From the NCBI RefSeq assembly GCF_026914265.1, contig NC_069135.1, positions 6,031,001-6,095,000 on the forward strand: a DNA stretch of 64,000 nucleotides, written 5' to 3'. Made by a program: the position numbers and the translations under genes. Under the pieces are notes generated by a model, which was not told where the DNA came from, did not search any database, and was given only the letters and a program-made list of their open reading frames with translations. This document shows, in pieces, positions 43,355 to 61,394 of this stretch; positions within the stretch are counted from its first letter, which is position 1, and every line of letters starts with the position of its first letter. The DNA comes from Mya arenaria. Lineage: Eukaryota > Mollusca > Bivalvia > Myida > Myidae.

Positions 43355-43804
43355 TCAGAAGGTTGACTGGTCCTGGTATTTTTGAATGTCAAAGAATTCA
43401 TTTTACATGAAATATTGAATACACTTTATGAACACTGAATATTGAATAAACCAGAGACTTATTATCTTTTTATAGACACTTTAAACAAATACGAAGTTTT
43501 CCCAATAAGAATGCTCCAGAACGTAATGCAAACATCTTTCTCTCAAATCAAAAAAGAATCTTGTTCATTCTGCAATTTCTATACATGTGAATAAATAGAA
43601 AATTCTAAATATTCTTAACAATCTTGACAAATGAATAATATTTTATAAAGAATTTATATCTTATTTTTCAGGATTTAGTTTTTGGAGTTTTACTGATGAG
43701 CTTTGTTTCATCTTATCACAGAATGTGAACAGACAATAAACACTTATCTCCAGCACAAGACTTCAGCTGTCATACATAAATTCAGTAAAATTTGTTTGCA
43801 GACC

Positions 43805-46800
43805 ATGGCAAGTGAAACAGAAAACATGAATACCCCAAGCTGCAATAAAATGGAAGTCTCTGGAACTGAGAGTGGCTACCTCACAGACTCATTTATTATG
43901 GGGAAGGAAAAAAATGGCCTTCAAGATTCATCCGGAGAGCCAGCTAGTAATTCAGAAAATGATATAACTCCATGTGCTGAAAACCTAATGGCTTTTAGCG
44001 ATTCAAGTGGTACTGCAAGTCCTCAGAATTCCGAAACTGGAAACTTGTCTTGTAATGGGACAAGTCAGAATTATGAAGGTAGTGAAGAAAGTAACAGAAA
44101 TGGTGACCTACACAGTTTACCAAGTTTAGATATCAATGAATTGAAGACAATAGATGAAATCTTTACATCAAACTTTAGTCTAAACAGACCGGAATCTTTG
44201 CCAATTAAAGAAAAAGACAACAGTGCAAACAAATGTAGAAGCAAGAGTGATATTCACTCTGGAAGTGTAATGGACAGTGACCATGCTTCTGAAGGCAGGA
44301 AAAGGAGTAAAAGTTCGGGATTCCCAATTCCAAAACAGAAAGAAGGTGTGCTCATATCAGAAGAACTACTGTCCAAAAGTTTACCCCATGGCAAGGTTGT
44401 AAAGAGGGAAACGGGAATGATCGAGTTTATTGCAGATGACCTACAGGAGATGATACGTATGAGCAGTCCAATTTCCAAAACTGGTGAATGTTTATTCATA
44501 ACGATTTCCTTTTATGTTTTGATTTCTCTATTGTCAAGTTGATCGGAATTTCATTTGGTAATGCCTCATATATATTTCTTTACATGATCTAAATTTCATT
44601 TTAAACTTGATACATTGTACATGAGTAGTTCATCTTAGAAGTAGAGATTCATATTTTTATAAATACTTCACAAAATAGCTTATGTTTAATTATCCTCAGA
44701 AATCAGACAGAGCTACTAAGTAAAACATGTAAATTACTTCATTTATTTGACTAAAACAACATATTTACTACATACATTAACACAAATTGGAAAAAATCAA
44801 AAACATCTTAAAAAAAAAGATAGATACATATTGTGAGAAGTGTTTGGTTTTCTTGATTTCAATAATATAAATACAAGTTTAATCATACAATTTATCAATC
44901 ATACAATTTATCACTTATTATGCTAGAATTTTTAACTTCTTCCACAGCGAGTGAAGTGAGTAGTCGGCGTTCCAGTGACTACAGCATCACAAGCGTAGAG
45001 AGTATGGCATCAAGCTCCATGGCTACATCCATGACCTCTGGAATGTCAAGGTCATCCTTTCCGCAGAGCCCTGACTGCATCCCACCAATTGACCCCATTG
45101 CTGTGCATGAAATCGAGAACCAGGCCAGGCTTGTGGCAGAAAACCTCGACCAGATGATGAGCAATCTTCACAATAACCTACATAAGGTTCATATACTAGT
45201 ATACACTTTATAGCTATCATTATTCTATATATTTCCTCATAGTTTATCGTCATCTTAAAATCTTTGCACTTGTCATTTATTTTTACTTATTCTTTTTTAC
45301 TTATTCATCACAAAAATGTTCTTCCAACTTTTAAATACTTATTTTATTCTGAATTCTGTCAGAGATCATAACTTTTTTATTTTTATTAAACAGTCGTATT
45401 ATTACTAAGGATGCAAACGAATGGCAAAATTGATATTTGAATATTCGGTAATTCTTTCGATCGAATATTCGATTACCGAAATACATATTTTGGAAGATGT
45501 AGTAAACTTGTATTATTATTCGCTTAAGTTATAGCTGGCAATTCTACCCTACTTTGTTGTAATCAGTACGCGTGGCAGACCCTGATTTCCCCAAATAAGC
45601 CTTTGAATTTCGCAATTTTCAGGAAGAAAAAACAATACATTATCAATTGACAAACAACAATTCCATTTTGTTTAATAATAATATATTCTAACTCCAAACG
45701 TTTGATTGAATATTCGAATATTCATTTGCTTCCAGAACTTTTACACATTGCTTATAGACTTTAATGTTATTTTAAAATAAGACACATCTCAATTGGTGTC
45801 AATTTATGGTGACATTTAAATGTGGCACTAATACTATGGTACAACCCGTGTTTACTTTTGTTTAACTACTTCTTGTACATTACAGATGTCCGCCATCAGT
45901 GTGGGATGTGAGGAGGCATACAAGACTTCAGTGGACGTCACCTGTGACTCTGTGGATTCAAGCATAAAGGTTAGTACATCTGCACCAGGGTAAGATACTA
46001 CAGCCAAACCACTTGTCAGGGTTAAAGTATTGGTAGTCAGGGCCTGTGGATATATTAGTAGTCAGGGACTGTGGATATATTTGTAGTCAGGGACTGTGGA
46101 TATATTGGTAGTCAGGGACTGTGGATATATTGGTAGTCAGTGACTGTGGAAGTATTGGTAGACAGGGACTGTGGATACTGTTGGTAGTCAGGGACTGTGG
46201 ATATATTAGTACTCAGGGACTGTGGAAATATTGGTAGACAGGGACTGTGGATATATTAGTACTCAGGGACTGCGGAAATATTGGTAGACAGGGACTGTGG
46301 ATATATTAGTACTCAGGGACTGTGCATATATTGGTAGACAGGGACTGTGGAAATATTGGTAGACAGGGACTGTGGATATATTGGTAGTCAGGGACTGTGG
46401 AAATATTGGTAGACAGGGACTGTGGATATATTAGTAGTCAGGGACTGTTGATATATTGGTAGTCAGGGACTGTGGAAATATTGGTAGTCAGGGACTGTGG
46501 ATATATTGGTAGTCAGGGACTGTGGATATATTGTTAGTCAAAGACTGTGGATATATTAGTAGTCAGGGACTGTGGATATATTGGTAGTCAGGGACTGTGG
46601 AAATATTGGTAGTCAGGGACTGTGGATATATTTTAAGTCAAAGACTGTGGATATATTGGTAGTTGGTAGTCAGAGACTGTGAAAATATTGGTAGTCAGGG
46701 ACTTTGGAGACATTGGTAGTCAGAGACTGGAAACGTTGGTAGTCAGGGACTGCTGCGTAAGTTTTGGTAGCCAGAGACTGGGTAAATATTTGAAGCTAAA

Positions 46801-51592: not shown

Positions 51593-54500
51593 TTAGTTGT
51601 CAACGGAGCTTCTACCGCTAGCTTCAAGGGAGCTGTTACGGCTATACCCTTCACTTTCCGTCTGTCGATCATAGGCGCGCTTATTCTTGATGTCGTCTGG
51701 ACGTTTGACGTCACCGTCGTCTGCCATTTTTGAGTCAGTTCCTGAAACTGAACGTCAAGTTCTTACAGTGGCAATTTTATAAATACATATTATTGTCAAT
51801 TTTTGCATGAGATATTTCCACAATGTGTTCTTTTTAGATGGCAATTTTATTAACAAACACGCAATGGCTACAGCTGTTAAATTGTTATAAGAACATGTAT
51901 GGGGAAGTATTTGAGGTGCCAAACTTCAATTGTCGTCCTTCTCCTTATAATTATTTTTAGGAGCGCAAAACAGTTGATGTGCGCGAAGATTGACACAACT
52001 GGTAGGTGTGCGCGGGGATTTATACAAAAGATTTGGGCGGAGAATGACAAAAAATAGTGCGCGGAAATTGACACAAAATCAGTGCGCGTAGATTGCTAGA
52101 ATAGGTTTGAGCGAAGGTTGACACAATAGATTTATCGGGGGGAGACACAATATGTGTAAGCGGCGTTTGACTCAAAATGAGGTGTGAGCGGAGGTTGATA
52201 CAATAGATATGTGCACGGAAATCGATACAATATACAATATATGAGCGCGAAGGTTGACAAATGTGTGGTGGGTACATAGGTGCGCGCGGATGTTATCTCA
52301 ACTTTTAGGGAAAAAATGGTCTTGCTCTATTGCTGTTTGTCTTTGAATATACACGAAAACGAACCCACTACCACTAAAACAGTACCAAATGACTACATTT
52401 CCGTTTGTAGCGGATTCTGGAAAGATTGGATAACTGCGTACCTTTGAACGCTGGCATTGGCCTTTCGTTTGGCTCTTCTTGTATGTACCGGTCCTCAGGG
52501 AAGCGGGAGTCCTTACTGTAGTCTTCTTGGTGGGGCCCGCCCGTCCCCCCGTACAGGCGGTCGATCAGCCAGTACGTGTCCATCCGACCCTTGCCCTGGG
52601 GGAGAGGAATAGCGAAACATGTTTATTAAAAAGGCATATACAAGTTCTTTGTCTTGGGGATCTAATCAACACGTTTCCGACTTGTTGCAGCTCCGTCGTG
52701 AAGTTTAGTTTAATAATATTTTTCTGATAGCTTTGATTGCTTGAAATGTTCTATTCGTTAGAAATGAACATTGCTGCGTTTACGGTTTCCCGAAAAATCA
52801 AAAACACATGGAAATACGCGTGTACACGAAAAACATCGATACCGACACTATATTATCACCTTTATGTCCATATTAGCGCGAAACTTCATCTTGAACTTGC
52901 CAGTCTTCAGCAGGCAAGCGTATGTGTTGTCGCTAATGTGGATGCGGTTAGCTAAATGAAAATCGATGTGTTATATTATGCACATATTTTATGTAAACTC
53001 ATACTTGTTTAATACCATTCACAAACATAATCATGCAAGAGCTTACTCGTTGATAATAAAAGATGAATCTATAATTTGTAGCCCAACCCATAAAATGTGT
53101 TTGCTCTTATAACGATTTTCGTTTCAACTCATCTTAGTTTAAAGGTTTAGAAATGAGGCCCAGAGAAACAGACTTACGTAGTCCATAGCTCTTCATCCTG
53201 GACGCAATGTTGACGGTGTCTCCGAACAAGCAGTATCGCAACATCACTGTCCCCACAATCCCCGCCGACACTGACCCTGGAAACAGTAAAACAAGAATTT
53301 AGAGGAAACCATAACCCCGCTCTTAGTGAGTGATGGACAATATTCCGGGTAACAATTCATAATACCATATTTTTTTTGGTTAAATGCAATATTATGTTCA
53401 ACTCATTTGACCTTCAATGACCTGATTTGTTCACAGATGAAAAAGATTATTAGCCTTCATAAAAAAATCATTTAATACTACGTTGGCACAAATCCCGCAA
53501 AATTCTTTTATTTTTAGCTGTTCACAGATGTTTTTTGTTTGGATTATTAAAGTGAAATGAATTTAACATCATGATGATTTAAAAACATAAACCTATTTTT
53601 GTGCCTCTTTAATAATCGGTGTTAAAAGAATTGGACAACAATTGCGTTATATGCACACATAAACATTGGCAGGCAACAGGAACAGTTTTAAGAAAGTAGT
53701 CACAGTAGCTAGTAGAGAAGACAGCTTAGCATGATTTATTGAAGAAGAATAGAAGAAAGGCAGCTGGTAATGAACCCCTTAGAGAAATATATTCATAAGC
53801 AAATACATATGACAGGGACATTATCATCCACTGCTAAGCGAACGCATATTGTAAGTACCGGTGTTTATGCCAATCTGAAGTTGTATGGGTGTGCTGTTGT
53901 CGGCGGTGAACTTTTTGGTCCGGGACATGTGCAGGGCGTCTATCGCCATTGATGCTATCTCCGCCACGTGCTTTTCACCGTTCCGGCTTGGCAGGCCTGA
54001 AAATGTACGGATGTGAGAGATGGGGGTCTTATCTCTCTGATACGATAGAGTGTGTACATTTTCGAATACTTAATAAATAGCAATTAATATAAGCAATAAT
54101 AATACAACATGTAAATAACGTTCGATGGGGATTTACCTGAGGCGACCATATAACAGTCGTTGATTGTTTCTACTTTGTAGACATCATAGTTTCCAATCTG
54201 TTCGTCCACTGATGTGTAGAAGCTGTTCAAAATCTTTACCAGTTCCATTGGAGGACACTCTGAACATACTTGATTAAATCCGGAAATTCCCGAGAAGAAC
54301 ACCGTGACAGAACGATAAAACTCCGACTCTACCGAAGAACAACACTTGAGACGCTCGGCAATACTCTTCGGTACCATCTGATAGAGTAGAGTGTCGGTTT
54401 TGTGTTTCTCGAGATTGAGTTCCTTAGTTTTCTCGACTAGAGTCTGTGTGTAGCGTTGGATGTCGCTGGCCAGTGCCTCGGAGGAGAACATGATCACGGG

Positions 54501-57500
54501 ACACATCGCTATGACAACCACTACCATTGACGCGTAGATGACCACTTTTGTTACAACCTAAAGCATTAAATTTAATGTCAACTTACACGAATATTTGATT
54601 CACATTTTTGAGGAAAAAATTGATCGTATGCATGTATACTACACGAGTAGTTCAACAATATGTGATCGCGCTTTGAATGTAATGCTTTCTTTTAAACTCC
54701 AAATGATTTCAGGCAAGTCTATATAAAACCACAATAACAATAAAAGTACTTATAATATATCTACGATACTTCACTTCGTAATACAAACCTGTTTAAGGAC
54801 TTCATCCACTTCCTCTGTGATTCTCTTGGCCACCTTCTCCTGGATGGTGAGTAAGGAGTCCAGATACTGGGTCATGTTGTCGAAGAACCACTTGGTTTTC
54901 TCCTCGCTCTTATAGGAGACGTTCAGGTCGTGATATTGAATCTCAGACCGGTATTCGTTAATCGTTACTGTAATATTGGCACCCGTCGACTGGTCGTTGC
55001 CCTGCACGTACGTACACACACGACAATGGTAATAGCAATGAGGCTTTGGGGCATAATGCTATTGTTCACGACTTTAGGGGACTGGTTGTTGCCCTGAACG
55101 TACGTACACATATGGCAATGGTAATAGCAATAAGGCTTTGGGAAATAGTGTCCGGGCATAATGGTATTGTTCACGACTTTAGGGGACTGGTCGTTACCCT
55201 GAACTCACGTTTACACTTGGAAATGGTAATAGCAATGTGGCTTTGGGAAGTAGTGTCCGGGCATAATGGTATTGTTCACGACTTTAGGGGTCTGATCGTT
55301 GCCCTGAACTCACGTTTACACTTGGAAATGGTAATAGCAATGTGGCTTTGGGGCATAGCGTCCTGGCATAAAGGTATTGTTCATGATTTTATGGGACTGG
55401 TCGTCGCCCTGGATTCAAGTTTACACATGGCAATGGTAATAACAATGTGGCTTTGGGGCATAGCATCCGGGCATAATGGTATTGTGCACGATTTTAGGGC
55501 ACTGGTCGTTGCCCTGAACTCACGTTTTCACATTACAATGGTAATAGTTATGTGGCTTTTGGACGTAGCGTCCGGGCATAATGGTATCGTGCACGATTTT
55601 AGGGGACAGGTCGTTGCCCTGAATGTACGTTCACACATGGCAAAGGTTATAGCAATGTGGCTTTTGGGCGTAGCGTCCGGGCATAATGGTATCGTGCACG
55701 ATTTTATTTGAGGTTTAAATAAGCTTTAAATAATGTTATGAATACGACACTGGCATTATAGTTATTGTGTAGTACTTCTTTCAGAACGTAATGAGTCGTA
55801 CATAATAATTATGTACAATCAATGCAACGTATTTGTTTAAGCATTCCATGCTGCATAATTCATTTGAAACGCCATAATTCCATGAAAGATAATATCCGTA
55901 CCGGGAAAAATCATCCCTAGTAACATTTTTAACCAGGTTTTCAACGAAAACCGGGTTATTAGAATGAGGTTGTCGTTGGGCGGGCGGGGCAAAAATGTTT
56001 CTAAAAATAGAAAAATGGTTTCTGCCCAATAACTTTAGTTAGCATTGACAGATATTGATGAAACTTGGTGTGTAGGTAGCTTATGTGAAGAGCTAGCTGA
56101 GGATTGCTTTTGAGGGGATTGGGGCTTAGGTCAAGGTCGCCTGTTACTAAAAATAGAAAAAATGGTTTCTGCCCAATAACTTTAGTTAGGATTGATAGAT
56201 ATTGACGAACGTTGGTGTGTAGGTAGCTTATGTGAAGAGCTAGCTTGGGATTGCTATTGAGGGGGGTGGGGCTAAGGTCAAGGTCACTGTTACTAAAAAT
56301 AGAAAAATGGTTTCTGCCCAATAACTTTAGTTAGCATTGACCGATATTGATGAAACTTGGTGTGTAGGTAGCTTATGTACAGAGCTAGCTTGGGATTGCT
56401 TTTGAGGGGGGTGGGGCTAAGGTCAAGGTCGCCTGATACTAAAAATAGAAAAATGGTTTCTGCCCAATAACATAAGTTAGGATTGATAGATATTGATAAA
56501 ACTTAGTTTGTAGGTAGCTTATGTGAAGAGCTAGTTTGGAATTGTTTTTGAGTGAGGAGGGGCTAAGGTCAAGGTCACTATTACTAAAAATAGAAAAAAA
56601 TGGTTTCTGCCCAATAACTTTAGTTAGGATTGACAGATATTGATGAAACTTGGTGTGTAGGTAGCATGTGAAGAGCTAGCTTGGGATTGCTTTTAATTGG
56701 GGAGGGGCTACGGTCAATGTCACTGTTACTTGAAATAGAAAAATGTGTTTTGCCGAATAACTTTTGATAGCATTGAAATATAGTGATTAAACTTGGTGTG
56801 TGGGCAGCTTATGTGAAGAGCTAGCTTGGGATTGCTTTTGAGGGGGGGGGGGGGGGCTAAGGTCAAGGTCACTGTTACTAAAAATTAAAAAAATGGTGTC
56901 CGCCCAATAACTTTAGTTAGCATTGATAGATATTGATAAAACTTGGTGTGTTGGTAGCTTATGTACAGAGCTAGCTTGGGATTGCTTTTGAGGGGGGTGG
57001 AGCTAAGGTCAAGGTCACTGTTACTAAAAATAGAAAAATGGTTTCTGCCCAATAACTTTAGTTAGGATTGATAGATATTGACGAAATTTTGTGTGTAGGT
57101 ACTAGAAGCTTATGTGAAGAGCAAGCTTGGAATTTCTTTTGAGGGGGGGGGGGGGTCAAGGTCACTGTTACTAAAAACAGAAAAAATGGTTTCTGCCCAA
57201 TAAGTTTAGTTAGCATTGATAGATATTGATGAAACTTAGAGCGAAGGTAGCTTATGTGAAGAGCTAGCTTGGTAGGTGGGGTCAAGGTCACTGTTCCTAT
57301 AAATAGAAACATGTTTTTCTGCCCAACAACTTAGTTAGAATTGATGGATAGTGATAAATCTTAGTGTGAAGATAGCTTATATGAAGCTGCAGATTAAACT
57401 TGCTCATACAACAAATTAATTGGCTATAATTTCTGATTGCCCATAACAAAAACCTGGTTTCGTCGCATTGCGGCGCTTCTAGTTTTGTATAATGTCACAT

Positions 57501-60500
57501 TATTCCACGTACACACGAGTACAACATATACATGTACCTTAACTTCCTCCATAAGTAGGGGCACCACGATGTCCGAGTAGAAGACAGCCGTCTTGTAGTT
57601 GTACTTGAAGTCATGCACCTGGTCGTTGTAGAACTCAAAGTCCACCCAGCGGGGAAACATGCCGATAGTGTAGAACATGGCACCATACGCCCGCTCCACC
57701 CCGATATCCTCCTTACACCGAGTGATCTTCTGGTAGGCAACCAGCGTCTTCCAGGTGGAGCCGAACCCCGTACCCTTGATATTCTCCACAAGCCACTCCA
57801 GAAACTCACGGGTGATATCGCTGTATTAATGAGGGAGGGGGAGGTGTGTGACATATGGATTTGTAGCATCATAAACGTATAAACTTTCATATAGGACATG
57901 CATGTAATATTAAGTATGTATGTAAACATGTATGTTATATGTTTATATGTTAAACACTTGAAAAAGATATTTGTAATTATGCGCATTATACTCTTCAACG
58001 CCCGCAGTGTGGGTCTGTGGGTTATTTTGACCTTGTCTTTCGCCTTACTAGTAGGGGTTTCAGCCATCGAAACGACAATCATTCATATAACAGAACAATG
58101 GTTTATATAGATAACCCTCTTTGCAAGCAAAACTAGTGTACATGTGGTCAGATTCAGAGGCGGGGACATGATTCGGTGTTAGAAAGGTGCCCAAGTTTAG
58201 GACGCCCCCTCCTCCAGAACCGAAAGATTTATGGTTTAAATGTTGATGGAAGGGTTAAGGTCTTCCACCCCAAGAACAATATTTGGTTGGGGGAGGGGTG
58301 GGGGTCCCAACCGCTAGTGAGTAATTACCTGTAGAAGTTAATTTCCTCGTAAAGGTTAACCTTCTTAGGGTTGAGAGAGGTACGGTGCTGGGCGATATAC
58401 GACATCAGGTTCACCTTCGACCGGAACTGCTCTCGGGGGTTTCTCTGGCGGAGAAGATAAATGCTTAATATATCTAACTCGCATGCGGGTGAGGAAGGTT
58501 ATTTTTTAATATGTAAACATGAATCTCTATAAGTGTAATATATGAATACATTTACTTAAAGATTTTATAATTCAAAATGGTTTTTTTTTTCAACTTATGT
58601 TTGATTAAGAGTAGTTTAAAACCTTTCAAAAGTATACTTAGTTCTATAAATACATAGAAAGGCTCTTAAAATATTCATTATTTCTATTAAGACGATGGAC
58701 TCCTACAAATCAACGCTATATACGCCACCTGCAGCGCCCCAGGCCAGATGGTGAGTTTCGCCAGTGCGTCGTCCGTGGCCATGTACTCCGCGAGAAGGAA
58801 TGTCTTGGTTCCCGGACCCAGGTCACTCAAGTAGAGGACGCTCATGTCACGCTCCATCTGCAGCCGGTGGATAAGCCGCCCCAGCACCACCACGATCGAC
58901 ATCGAGTTCTTAGCCTTGAATAGTTGATGAAAAGTCTTTCAAAACTTGCGGTGGGGAATAACGTGTTTGGTTGTTGTTTTCGACAACAGTGCGTTTTGGC
59001 TTAATGGTCAAAGCAAATTATAGTTTGTCATAAATAATGAGTGTCTATGTACGTGTAATACACCTTATTATTTTTTTTAGAAGTTTTTAACCGCCTTGAT
59101 CAAATTCCACCATGTGGTTTAGAAAGCCATGAAAAGGTGACCTCATGTGGGACAAACACACAGATATATGTAGGAGCATATATTTTATTTGAATAGTGTA
59201 ATGCCTTCCACCACTTACCACTTCAATGTCGGTCTTGCTCTCGACACTGTCGGACAGCGAGTACATAGTGAAACCCCACACCCCGAGGATCGGGATGACG
59301 GTGAGACAGAGGATCTTGAACAGTTGGAACCGCTTGCCCCGGTCTGTAAGTGGGTTCACGCGACACAGGGGCCCTGCAGAGATTGTGAGTAGGGAACGTT
59401 AGCTTAGGTTTACAAACTGGGCGTTTATATTTAACATTGTTATTATAGGCTTTCACAGATATAACTTGAACTTTAATTGCCGATTTTTCTTTTATTAAAA
59501 ATGGGAATTATTTTACACGGTATCTTATATAACATCGAATGATATATCTTTTTAAGTATTTAACATTGCGATATTTGTGAAATCCTGCATTGTTGAAAAT
59601 GATTATTAAATGTCCCTGATAAATAACTCATGGAGTATCATGGAATAAAAACCTCATGGAATGGCTAGTTGTATACATGCACAACGTATAGATAAATGTT
59701 TTATTTTAATTAGGAAATAAATCGTAGTTTACTTCCATTTAATTGTATTCATTAACTGTGGTACCACTCCCACCAAAACCACACTAAGGTCAAATAGTTA
59801 CTCACCACATCCTATCTCTGCGAACATGTTGGTCTGAATGAGATCAATGATGTCGTCATTGTTGACTGGAGCTGCCCCCTTCTTCAGGTTCTCCGTCCTA
59901 GAACACAATCATACGGCAGCTATTACCCTGGTCTCAGTCAGATAAAGCAATGGTTCCAGTCAGAGTGAGATACATGTATAACCCTGGTTTCAGCTAAACA
60001 TTGCAATGGTTCCAGTCAGATATAACCATGATCTCAATCTAGTATTGCCATGGTTTCAGCCAGGTATATCCTTTTTTCTGGGCCGGTATCATCCTGGTCT
60101 CAGTCACGCTCAGTCACGTATTACCATGCAATCAGTAATTACTTATTACCTTGATCTCAGTTACGTATTACTCTTAGCTCAGTCAAATATTATCTTGGTC
60201 TCAGTCAGGTATAACCATGTTCTAAGTCGGGTATGACCGTGGTCTCTGTCAGGTTTTACCATGGTCTCTGTCAGGTTTAACCGTGGTCTCAGTCAGGTTT
60301 TACCGTGGTCTCAGTCAGGTATAAGCGTGGTCCCAGTTTGGTTTAACCGTTGTCTCAGTCAGATATTACCTTGGTCTCCGTCAGGTTTTACCGTGGTCTC
60401 AGTCAGGCTTCACCATGGTCTCAGTTTGGTTTAACCGTGGTCTCAGTCAGATATTACCGTGGTCTCAGTCAGGAATAATAGTGGTCTCAGTCAGATATTA

Positions 60501-61394
60501 CTGTGGTCTCAGTCAGGTATAAGCGTGGTCTCAGTCGGGTAATACCGTGGTCTCACCCAGGTATAATCGTGGTCTCAGTCAGGTATAACCGTGACCTCAG
60601 TCAGGTATGGCCGTGTTCTCAGTCATGTAATACCGTGGTCTCAGTCAGGTATTACCGTGATCTCAGTCAGGTATAACCGTGATCTCAGCCATGTAATACC
60701 GTGATCTCAGGCAGGTATAAGCGTGGTCTCAGTCAGGTAATACCGTTGACTCAGGTAGTATAACCCGGGTCTCAGTCAGGTAATACCATTGTCTTAGGCA
60801 GTATAACCCGGGTCTCAGTCAGGTAATACCATTGTCTCAGGCAGTATAACCCGGGTCTCAGTCAGGCAATACCGTGGTCTCAGTCAGTTATACCGTGGCC
60901 TCAGGCAGGTATAACCGTGGTCGCAGGCAGGTATAAGCGTGGTCTCAGTCAGGTTATACCGTGGTATCAGGCAGGTATAACCGTGGTGTCAGTCGGGTAA
61001 TACCGTGGTCTCAGGCAGGTAATACCGCGTTCTCAGGCAGGTATAACCGTGGTCTCGGGTACAATAAACATTCTACTACGTCTAATCAAATGCAAACATA
61101 GTTCACATTGCGGTTTGTATAGCGTCAGAAAGTTTAGCAAACGTTGCCGTCGAGTCTTCTTTGACAGGAAAGTTTTATGTTGCTGTCAAAGAACATTTCT
61201 TTTTAAATTAATAGAATATGGGGAGGGGGACTAAACAAGCAAAATGTTCCCAAACATGTAATGCAGATTAATGAACAAGTTATGAAATCAGTTAATTTTC
61301 GGCACCAATTTTTTACCTATGCTTTGGTAAATAAGAACTTAACTCAATACAATTATAAATGCTAGACTTACTTCAAATCGGTCATTTGCTCCAT
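51593..61394 (-). CDS. NIT-domain receptor guanylate cyclase (704 aa)
   Basis: Thirteen coding exons (minus): 61394-61372, 59897-59806, 59373-59219, 58908-58729, 58444-58329, 57820-57538, 55001-54789, 54557-54137, 53996-53859, 53276-53178, 52951-52860, 52595-52442, 51741-51593. All junctions are GT/AG, all phases agree, 2115 bases with TAA. An in-frame TAA lies nine bases upstream of the ATG. Membrane helix 1 is about residues 57-78. An extracellular NIT (nitrate/nitrite-sensing-type) domain spans about 91-345, with [20 protein letters not shown] and [18 protein letters not shown]. Helix 2 is about 359-379, then a signalling helix (395-425) and cyclase domain (about 435-620). E484 and C556 (RYCLFGD) indicate GTP specificity; N563 and R567 are the transition-state pair; D488 is a metal ligand. 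The first metal ligand is replaced by G444 (FFSGISGFN). No kinase-homology domain. The hydrophilic tail (620-704) ends SSVDN. Confidence 0.93.
51955..52290. repeat. Diverged minisatellite, unit about 30 bp, in cyclase intron 12
   Basis: About ten imperfect units of GTGCGCGGAGATTGACACAA plus TAGATT type. Unusually CpG-rich (GCGCG) for this region. Confidence 0.75.
53277..53858. other. Cyclase intron 9
   Basis: AT-rich intron between exons 9 and 10; no repeat or element recognised. Confidence 0.6.
54989..55712. repeat. 105-bp tandem repeat that includes a copy of the exon 7 acceptor
   Basis: Seven units begin GACTGGTCGTTGCCCTG at about 54989, 55080, 55187, 55290, 55397, 55501 and 55606. Each continues with a CAATGGTAATAGCAATGTGG block, GGGCATAATGGTATTGTTCA and CGACTTTAGGGG. 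The first unit's start is the first 13 bases of cyclase exon 7 plus its splice acceptor (minus strand TGCAG|GGCAACGACCAGTC). The plus strand stays open for 221 codons across the array, a by-product of the repeat. Confidence 0.9.
55931..57485 (+). mobile_element. Helentron-like non-autonomous element, family C, in cyclase intron 6
   Basis: The 5' end AACCAGGTTTT and the 3' region AAAACCTGGTT (57449-57459) are exact sub-terminal inverted repeats, followed by CGTCGCATTGCGGCGCTTCT then AGTTTT. Between them lie about ten tandem units of about 147 bp with GGTTTCTGCCCAATAACTTT, GATAGATATTGATGAAACTT, GTGTGTAGGTAGCTTATGTG, AAGAGCTAGCTTGG, poly-G and AAGGTCAAGGTCACTGTTAC. There is no transposase. The layout matches the families A and B elements. 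Confidence 0.65.
59925..61060. repeat. 22-bp minisatellite in cyclase intron 1
   Basis: About 50 copies of GTGGTCTCAGTCAGGTATAA plus CC, with frequent variants (AATACC, GTTTTACC, TAAGC, CAGGCAGG). Near 60750-60860 three copies share a TATAACCCGGGTCTCAGTCA variant, indicating local duplication. The array lies between exon 2 and exon 1 of the cyclase. Confidence 0.92.

Follow-up and report, generated by a model that had tools for sequence, protein, structure and literature searches.

A NIT-domain guanylate cyclase of Mya arenaria as a putative beta-like half of a membrane heterodimer

Can a membrane receptor guanylate cyclase that has lost one of its two metal-binding aspartates still contribute to a working enzyme, and if so, with what kind of partner? 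The question is raised by a gene in a 64,000-nucleotide stretch of the Mya arenaria genome (contig NC_069135.1, positions 6,031,001 to 6,095,000 of assembly GCF_026914265.1; the whole stretch is called the window, and positions are those of the window unless a chromosome is named), which encodes a guanylate cyclase with a NIT sensor domain (NIT-GC). An initial annotation had noticed a glycine where catalytic cyclases have the first metal-binding Asp, and had proposed that the protein cannot be a symmetric active homodimer and may supply the guanine-binding and transition-state half of a membrane heterodimer. From a comparison with other NIT-GCs we consider it on balance probable that the window protein forms the beta-like half of an obligate heterodimer of membrane NIT-GCs; a likely partner class can now be named, and at the level of sequence the heterodimer idea gains comparative support.

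The glycine is encoded by a GGA codon (54290-54288) and is residue 446 (previously numbered 444); in a PDB alignment it falls opposite the Asp in the FSDIVGF motif of natriuretic peptide receptor 1. The Glu, Asp, Cys, Asn and Arg reported with it are likewise present, as E486, D490, C558, N565 and R569, and since the earlier numbers are all two lower than those of our 13-exon model, the two sets agree in relative position. In a symmetric homodimeric class III cyclase each subunit has both metal Asp residues; here the second, D490, is present and the first is Gly446, and E486 and C558 provide the guanine Glu/Cys of a class III guanylate cyclase. A further loss was overlooked earlier: the substrate Arg, equivalent to R574 of the soluble guanylate cyclase (sGC) alpha subunit, is a Gln in the window protein and in its orthologues P0001 (Ruditapes) and P0002 (Mactra). 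Both orthologues, from species of Venerida (Mya belongs to Myida), have a Gly at the first metal site, and a sequencing slip is therefore unlikely. Moreover, because this Gly persists across Myida and Venerida together with high identity between the window protein and the two orthologues (87-88% in the cyclase domain, 93-94% in the NIT domain), the protein does not look like one in decay. All three have lost the first metal Asp and the substrate Arg and retain the Asn, the Arg, the last Lys and the guanine Glu/Cys; the metal half is thus lost and the base and transition-state half kept, as in one subunit of an obligate heterodimer. Loss of these two residues could also describe a pseudo-cyclase, a sensor or decoy that damps active dimers or signals without catalysis, and five of the 149 rows in the tree described below are degenerate on both halves (metal and Asn/Arg changed). 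We regard this as unlikely here, since a pseudo-enzyme has no need to retain precisely one half, with its guanine, Asn, Arg and last Lys residues, in so well conserved a cyclase domain.

These residues belong to a gene on the minus strand that runs from 61394 to 51593 and encodes 706 amino acids in 13 exons, with gt-ag boundaries at 12 of 12 introns; the interval in which the motif was first noticed, 54137-54557, is exactly one exon, with an ag acceptor and a gt donor.

61372..61394, minus strand: exon 1, with the start codon, encoding the N-terminal MEQMTDLK; located by means of the P0002 start MEQMSDLK and an in-frame join
59806..59897, minus strand: exon 2, cytoplasmic N-terminus, similar to P0002
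59219..59373, minus strand: exon 3, first transmembrane segment, residues ~54-78 by hydropathy
58729..58914, minus strand: exon 4, start of the NIT domain, with Arg112 (QMERDMS)
58329..58444, minus strand: exon 5, NIT domain
57538..57820, minus strand: exon 6, NIT domain, with Arg234 (GVERAYG)
54789..55001, minus strand: exon 7, end of the NIT domain; its 5' end borders a 105-bp minisatellite
54137..54557, minus strand: exon 8, second transmembrane segment, signalling helix, and FSGISGFN with Gly446, E486 and D490; Pfam HNOBA and Guanylate_cyc
54288..54290, minus strand: Gly446 codon GGA, replacing the first metal-binding Asp
53859..53996, minus strand: exon 9, Gln replacing the substrate Arg (LQIGINTG)
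53178..53276, minus strand: exon 10, C558, N565 and R569 retained
52860..52951, minus strand: exon 11, cyclase domain; ends with the codon for the Lys that corresponds to sGC-beta K593
52442..52595, minus strand: exon 12, end of the cyclase domain
51593..51741, minus strand: exon 13, C-terminal tail and stop, a prediction from frame and splice signals alone; the tails of P0001 and P0002 do not clearly match it

Pfam finds three families only, NIT (PF08376), a short HNOBA match and Guanylate_cyc (PF00211, E 4.4e-59). The HNOB heme domain was not found in the window protein by Pfam; the protein is thus not an sGC, and its likeness to sGC is one of working parts. Two transmembrane segments, which show as peaks of hydropathy (residues 54-78 and 353-387), flank the NIT domain, and the gene looks like that of an intact membrane receptor (transmembrane segment, NIT sensor, transmembrane segment, signalling helix, cyclase); a fold is predicted for an orthologue. 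The protein has R112 and R234, which we take to be the two conserved arginines of metazoan NIT domains. Two conserved NIT arginines, named in PMC7400543, are thought to bind ligand. No protein identical to that of the window is found among the best 120 of 471 matches, and the exon 7 acceptor is borrowed from the minisatellite edge, but a 706-codon open frame in 13 exons with 12 gt-ag introns and strong conservation to two clams make a pseudogene or assembly error very improbable.

The NIT-GCs compared here come from three protein searches, which listed the best 120 of 471, 289 and 512 matches and gave 220 different proteins, or 221 rows with the window protein. The main tree holds 149 rows and was built without the seven columns scored first; 72 rows were left out (56 lacking one of the seven sites, five shorter than 500 residues, and 11 more than 95% identical to a kept row), and their first metal site is Asp in 54, Ser in 14, Glu in three and Gly in one. 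A careful tree of 49 rows recovers the same main clades. The substrate Arg and the last Lys were scored only after the classes had been drawn, and they thus serve as a partly independent check; by plain alignment the last Lys is ambiguous in the alpha class, where 13 of 33 rows show a Lys in a gapped region, and once this first result had been seen, scoring was repeated on the basis of how far the residue lies from the TYW motif, with 16 of 149 rows unscorable.

The main result of this comparison is a division between two spiralian clades. In the 43 "canonical" rows, which are a remainder and not a single clade, both metal Asp residues are present throughout, a difference from the window protein, and Asn/Arg is altered once. 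In the spiralian alpha clade (33 rows, from molluscs, nemerteans, brachiopods and one annelid) both metal Asp residues and the substrate Arg are intact in every row; the Asn is altered in 21 and the Arg in 28, with one or both changed in all 33, and the last Lys is present in none of the 31 rows scored. The spiralian beta clade (54 rows, including the window protein) has the metal pair altered in 20 rows, Asn/Arg in 10 and both in two, such that Asn/Arg is intact in 18 of the 20 metal-altered rows; the substrate Arg is present in 38 of 54 and the last Lys in 40 of the 48 scored. The first site has become Gly in seven of these rows (clams and nemerteans; one also has a second-site Ser), Ser in seven (clams and Dreissena) and Glu in four (gastropods; one also has a second-site Glu), and changes at the second site only are to Glu in one (Lingula) and to Asn in one (scallop). 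Identity to the canonical consensus on the metal side and the other side, respectively, is 0.90 and 0.73 in spiralian alpha and 0.59 and 0.79 in spiralian beta (0.88 and 0.95 in the canonical rows). The scallop NIT-GCs P0067, P0069 and P0071 lack the guanine Glu and Cys, and two of the three also lack the Asn and Arg; they are probable pseudo-cyclases.

A weaker split is seen in echinoderms and hemichordates. All 11 deuterostome beta-like rows have an altered metal pair through a second-site Asp to Glu change, and two have Asn/Arg altered (identities 0.58 and 0.84); since Asp to Glu is conservative and the Glu may still bind metal, the case is the weaker one. The eight deuterostome alpha-like rows include one with altered metal residues and four with altered Asn/Arg. 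We note that the second-site-Glu clade (P0058, P0061, P0065, P0079, P0089, P0094, P0096, P0125, P0166, P0167 and P0182) has as its sister a clade with the transition-state Arg changed to Lys or His in four of eight rows. On 49 of the 149 rows, the approximately unbiased test rejects a single origin in bilaterians for the alpha class (p 0.023) and for the beta class (p 0.004), with p-values that are optimistic in that the clades were named after a tree had been seen, and this split appears to be independent of the spiralian one.

The same residues divide in the same manner in sGC. The initial annotation had likened the motif to that of sGC beta-1, and human beta-1 indeed reads VTILFSGIVGFN; a 20-residue FSGIVGFN query from the nemertean protein P0056 matched four distinct PDB sequences, all of them sGC beta-1, although with weak E values (0.14-0.53). 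The best PDB match of the alpha-type segment PRYCLFGESVTIASKMES (P0078) is human sGC alpha, NNVTLANKFES, which has the same Asn to Thr and Arg to Lys changes; the first cyclase domain of adenylate cyclase 8 likewise has a Lys at that Arg position. The human sGC site is composed of alpha D486, D530 and R574 and beta R552 and K593, as given in the available portion of PMC3591389.

Candidate partners are present in the Mya genome, the searches of which were made exon by exon and may be incomplete. Four alpha-type loci lie on C14, the chromosome that carries the window gene at 6.08 Mb, at 2.61-2.62, 2.645-2.650, 19.72 and 20.49 Mb; their exons encode FSDIVGFT, GDAYL, and FGEAVNVASKME or FGEAVNVANMME, with the metal Asp kept and the Arg replaced by Lys or Met. 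The loci at 19.72 and 20.49 Mb are nearly identical and may reflect a recent duplication or an assembly duplicate. NIT-GCs with an Asp at the Gly446 site, as supposed of the partner in the initial annotation, thus exist, the alpha clade among them, also in Mya, and the complementary losses in these same-chromosome relatives suggest that proteins of the two kinds function in pairs. Of 12 named species whose spiralian beta has altered metal residues, seven have an alpha among the matches listed, and the nemertean Tubulanus has three Gly-type beta and three alpha proteins. Elsewhere on C14, three more NIT loci without the first Asp lie at 22.49, 23.30 and 23.32 Mb (two FTSIVSF, one FTGVVNF); the one at 23.316 Mb (L006, L010, L036) is a second Gly-type NIT-GC of Mya, with FTGVVNF, and is closest to the Ser-type genes.

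The partner could instead be a close paralogue, either the Asn to Phe/Tyr sister type, represented in Mya by P0006 (Asn to Phe; C4:68.64-68.66 Mb, or 68.636-68.655 Mb for L032 and L033) and in Ruditapes by P0003, or an intact beta of the P0007 type (C14:8.51 Mb), which has every scored residue. P0003 and P0006 form the sister clade of the window clade (support 98/96) and have the opposite-half losses, with Asn to Tyr or Phe and last Lys to Ser, and both metal Asp residues and the substrate Arg kept; the NIT domains are 77-78% alike, and NIT-NIT contacts may therefore be shared. However, both keep the Arg, no Mactra protein of the P0003 type is among the matches listed though Mactra has the Gly protein, and between Ruditapes and Mya the P0003/P0006 cyclase domain is only 62% identical (NIT 89%), a fast evolution that resembles relaxed constraint, as though the cyclase part of the protein were being released. 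We think a pairing of this kind unlikely.

In the heterodimer with an alpha-clade partner, which we prefer, the window subunit would give Glu486 and Cys558 for guanine, Asn565, Arg569 and the last Lys, and the partner would give both metal Asp residues and the substrate Arg. The likeliest partners would be the alpha-clade NIT-GCs of the Mya P0180 and P0133 types, with genes on the same chromosome. There would be one active site per alpha/beta dimer, the pseudo-symmetric site being dead, as in sGC. Both subunits keep the two NIT arginines, and each could sense nitrate, nitrite or a signal derived from nitric oxide (NO), such that the pair could integrate two inputs. We infer the pairing, the co-expression, the inactivity of the homodimer and the ligand from these sequences.

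How far the losses are coupled depends on how relatedness is treated. On counts of rows, which share ancestry, loss of Asn/Arg and loss of the last Lys are associated with a Fisher p of ~3e-27; among eight independent pairs the two losses coincide in 5.8 and are opposed in 0.0 (median p 0.031, range 0.016-0.22), so that the residues of the transition-state half decay together. For metal and substrate Arg, 2.1 pairs agree and 0.0 are opposed, too few to test, and metal and last Lys (0.5 versus 2.4) show no significant association on independent pairs. The fewest changes on the 149-row tree are nine for the metal state and 10 for the Asn/Arg state.

Several observations weigh against the heterodimer. 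Metal and Asn/Arg losses are not mutually exclusive on eight independent pairs (1.5 same, 1.4 opposite), and the row-level exclusivity is thus unsupported; the pattern therefore rests on few clade-level events, and complementarity is best taken as a statement about a few clades. The earlier interpretation is partly supported. Both metal Asp residues are present in 34 of the 54 beta rows, and because 26 of these also have the Asn and Arg, many betas may work as homodimers; outside the clams most metal-altered beta rows still have the substrate Arg. In the Mya alphas the Asn is retained and changes are confined to the last Lys and to the Arg, which is replaced by Lys or Met, so that the alphas may form a weak homodimer, and the intact beta noted above (FSDIAGFH) could be the partner. 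No alpha is among the matches listed for five of the 12 species (Lineus, Dreissena, Babylonia, Littorina and Gigantopelta), which is not proof of absence, and the deuterostome alpha-like motif is symmetric (0.85 and 0.84), with Asn/Arg altered in only four of eight rows. Finally, active sGC beta homodimers are reported in the accessible parts of PMC5225109 and, for Manduca MsGC-beta3, PMC1435932. Together with the retained D490 they speak for the idea that the window protein is active as a homodimer, its metal site being unusual or holding a single metal, which seems to us quite improbable, given that the substrate Arg is lost too and that the catalytic homodimers of human sGC alpha2 and of beta2 are inactive (PMC3591389, available portion).

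A broader scenario is put forward more tentatively, as slightly less likely than not: that membrane NIT-GCs re-evolved an sGC-like alpha/beta split, once in spiralians and less completely in echinoderms and hemichordates, after which betas, that of the window included, repeatedly lost the metal half. As both halves carry a sensor, such pairs would be two-input nitrate/NO receptors. If some NIT-GCs do act as alpha/beta pairs, expression tests of single genes would fail to detect them as active, and the sensor could be tuned by which partner is chosen. The family would then offer a repeated natural experiment in the passage from homodimeric enzyme to obligate heterodimer.

The 105-bp minisatellite (6.3 copies, 55049-55706) adjoins exon 7, and its last partial copy (~54985-55050, by eye) provides the splice acceptor of the exon together with its opening codons, which encode GND where the orthologue P0001 has EIK. 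A 22-bp minisatellite (~42 copies, 60144-61056) lies within intron 1 and a 145-bp satellite (8.7 copies, 55996-57272) within intron 6. On the plus strand, 43700-45200 has long open frames of another host gene, encoding a Ser-rich protein with MASETENMNTPS.

Among known systems, other metazoan NIT-GCs share the NIT domain between two transmembrane segments followed by a receptor-type cyclase (Placozoa; PMC7400543, accessible part), and NO signalling through NIT-GCs is a new cyclic GMP branch that plays a part in the behaviour of an annelid (PMC10584369). They differ in that neither heterodimers nor half-site loss are described in the accessible part of PMC7400543 or, for Platynereis NIT-GC1 and NIT-GC2, in PMC10584369. 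Paired NIT-GCs were not found in our literature search, the one heterodimer mention in the accessible part of PMC7400543 being of the PDZ domain of nitric oxide synthase, and we make no claim that they are unpublished.

The sGC alpha/beta pair has the same division of residues, with FSG..GFN in beta and Asn to Thr and Arg to Lys in alpha; it differs from the NIT-GCs, which are membrane receptors with NIT sensors on both subunits, and no HNOB domain is found in the window protein. ODR-1 and DAF-11 of C. elegans belong to another receptor family, one not known to have a NIT domain. They form an obligate membrane cyclase heterodimer in which each subunit contributes to one site, as described in the accessible part of PMC5225109. 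The chytrid RGC1/2 and NeoR, also membrane guanylyl cyclases, are inactive unless they form heterodimers (PMC7655827, in the portion available); they are fungal and have a rhodopsin sensor, and catalytic half-sites are not described in that portion. These precedents show that obligate heterodimeric membrane cyclases exist.

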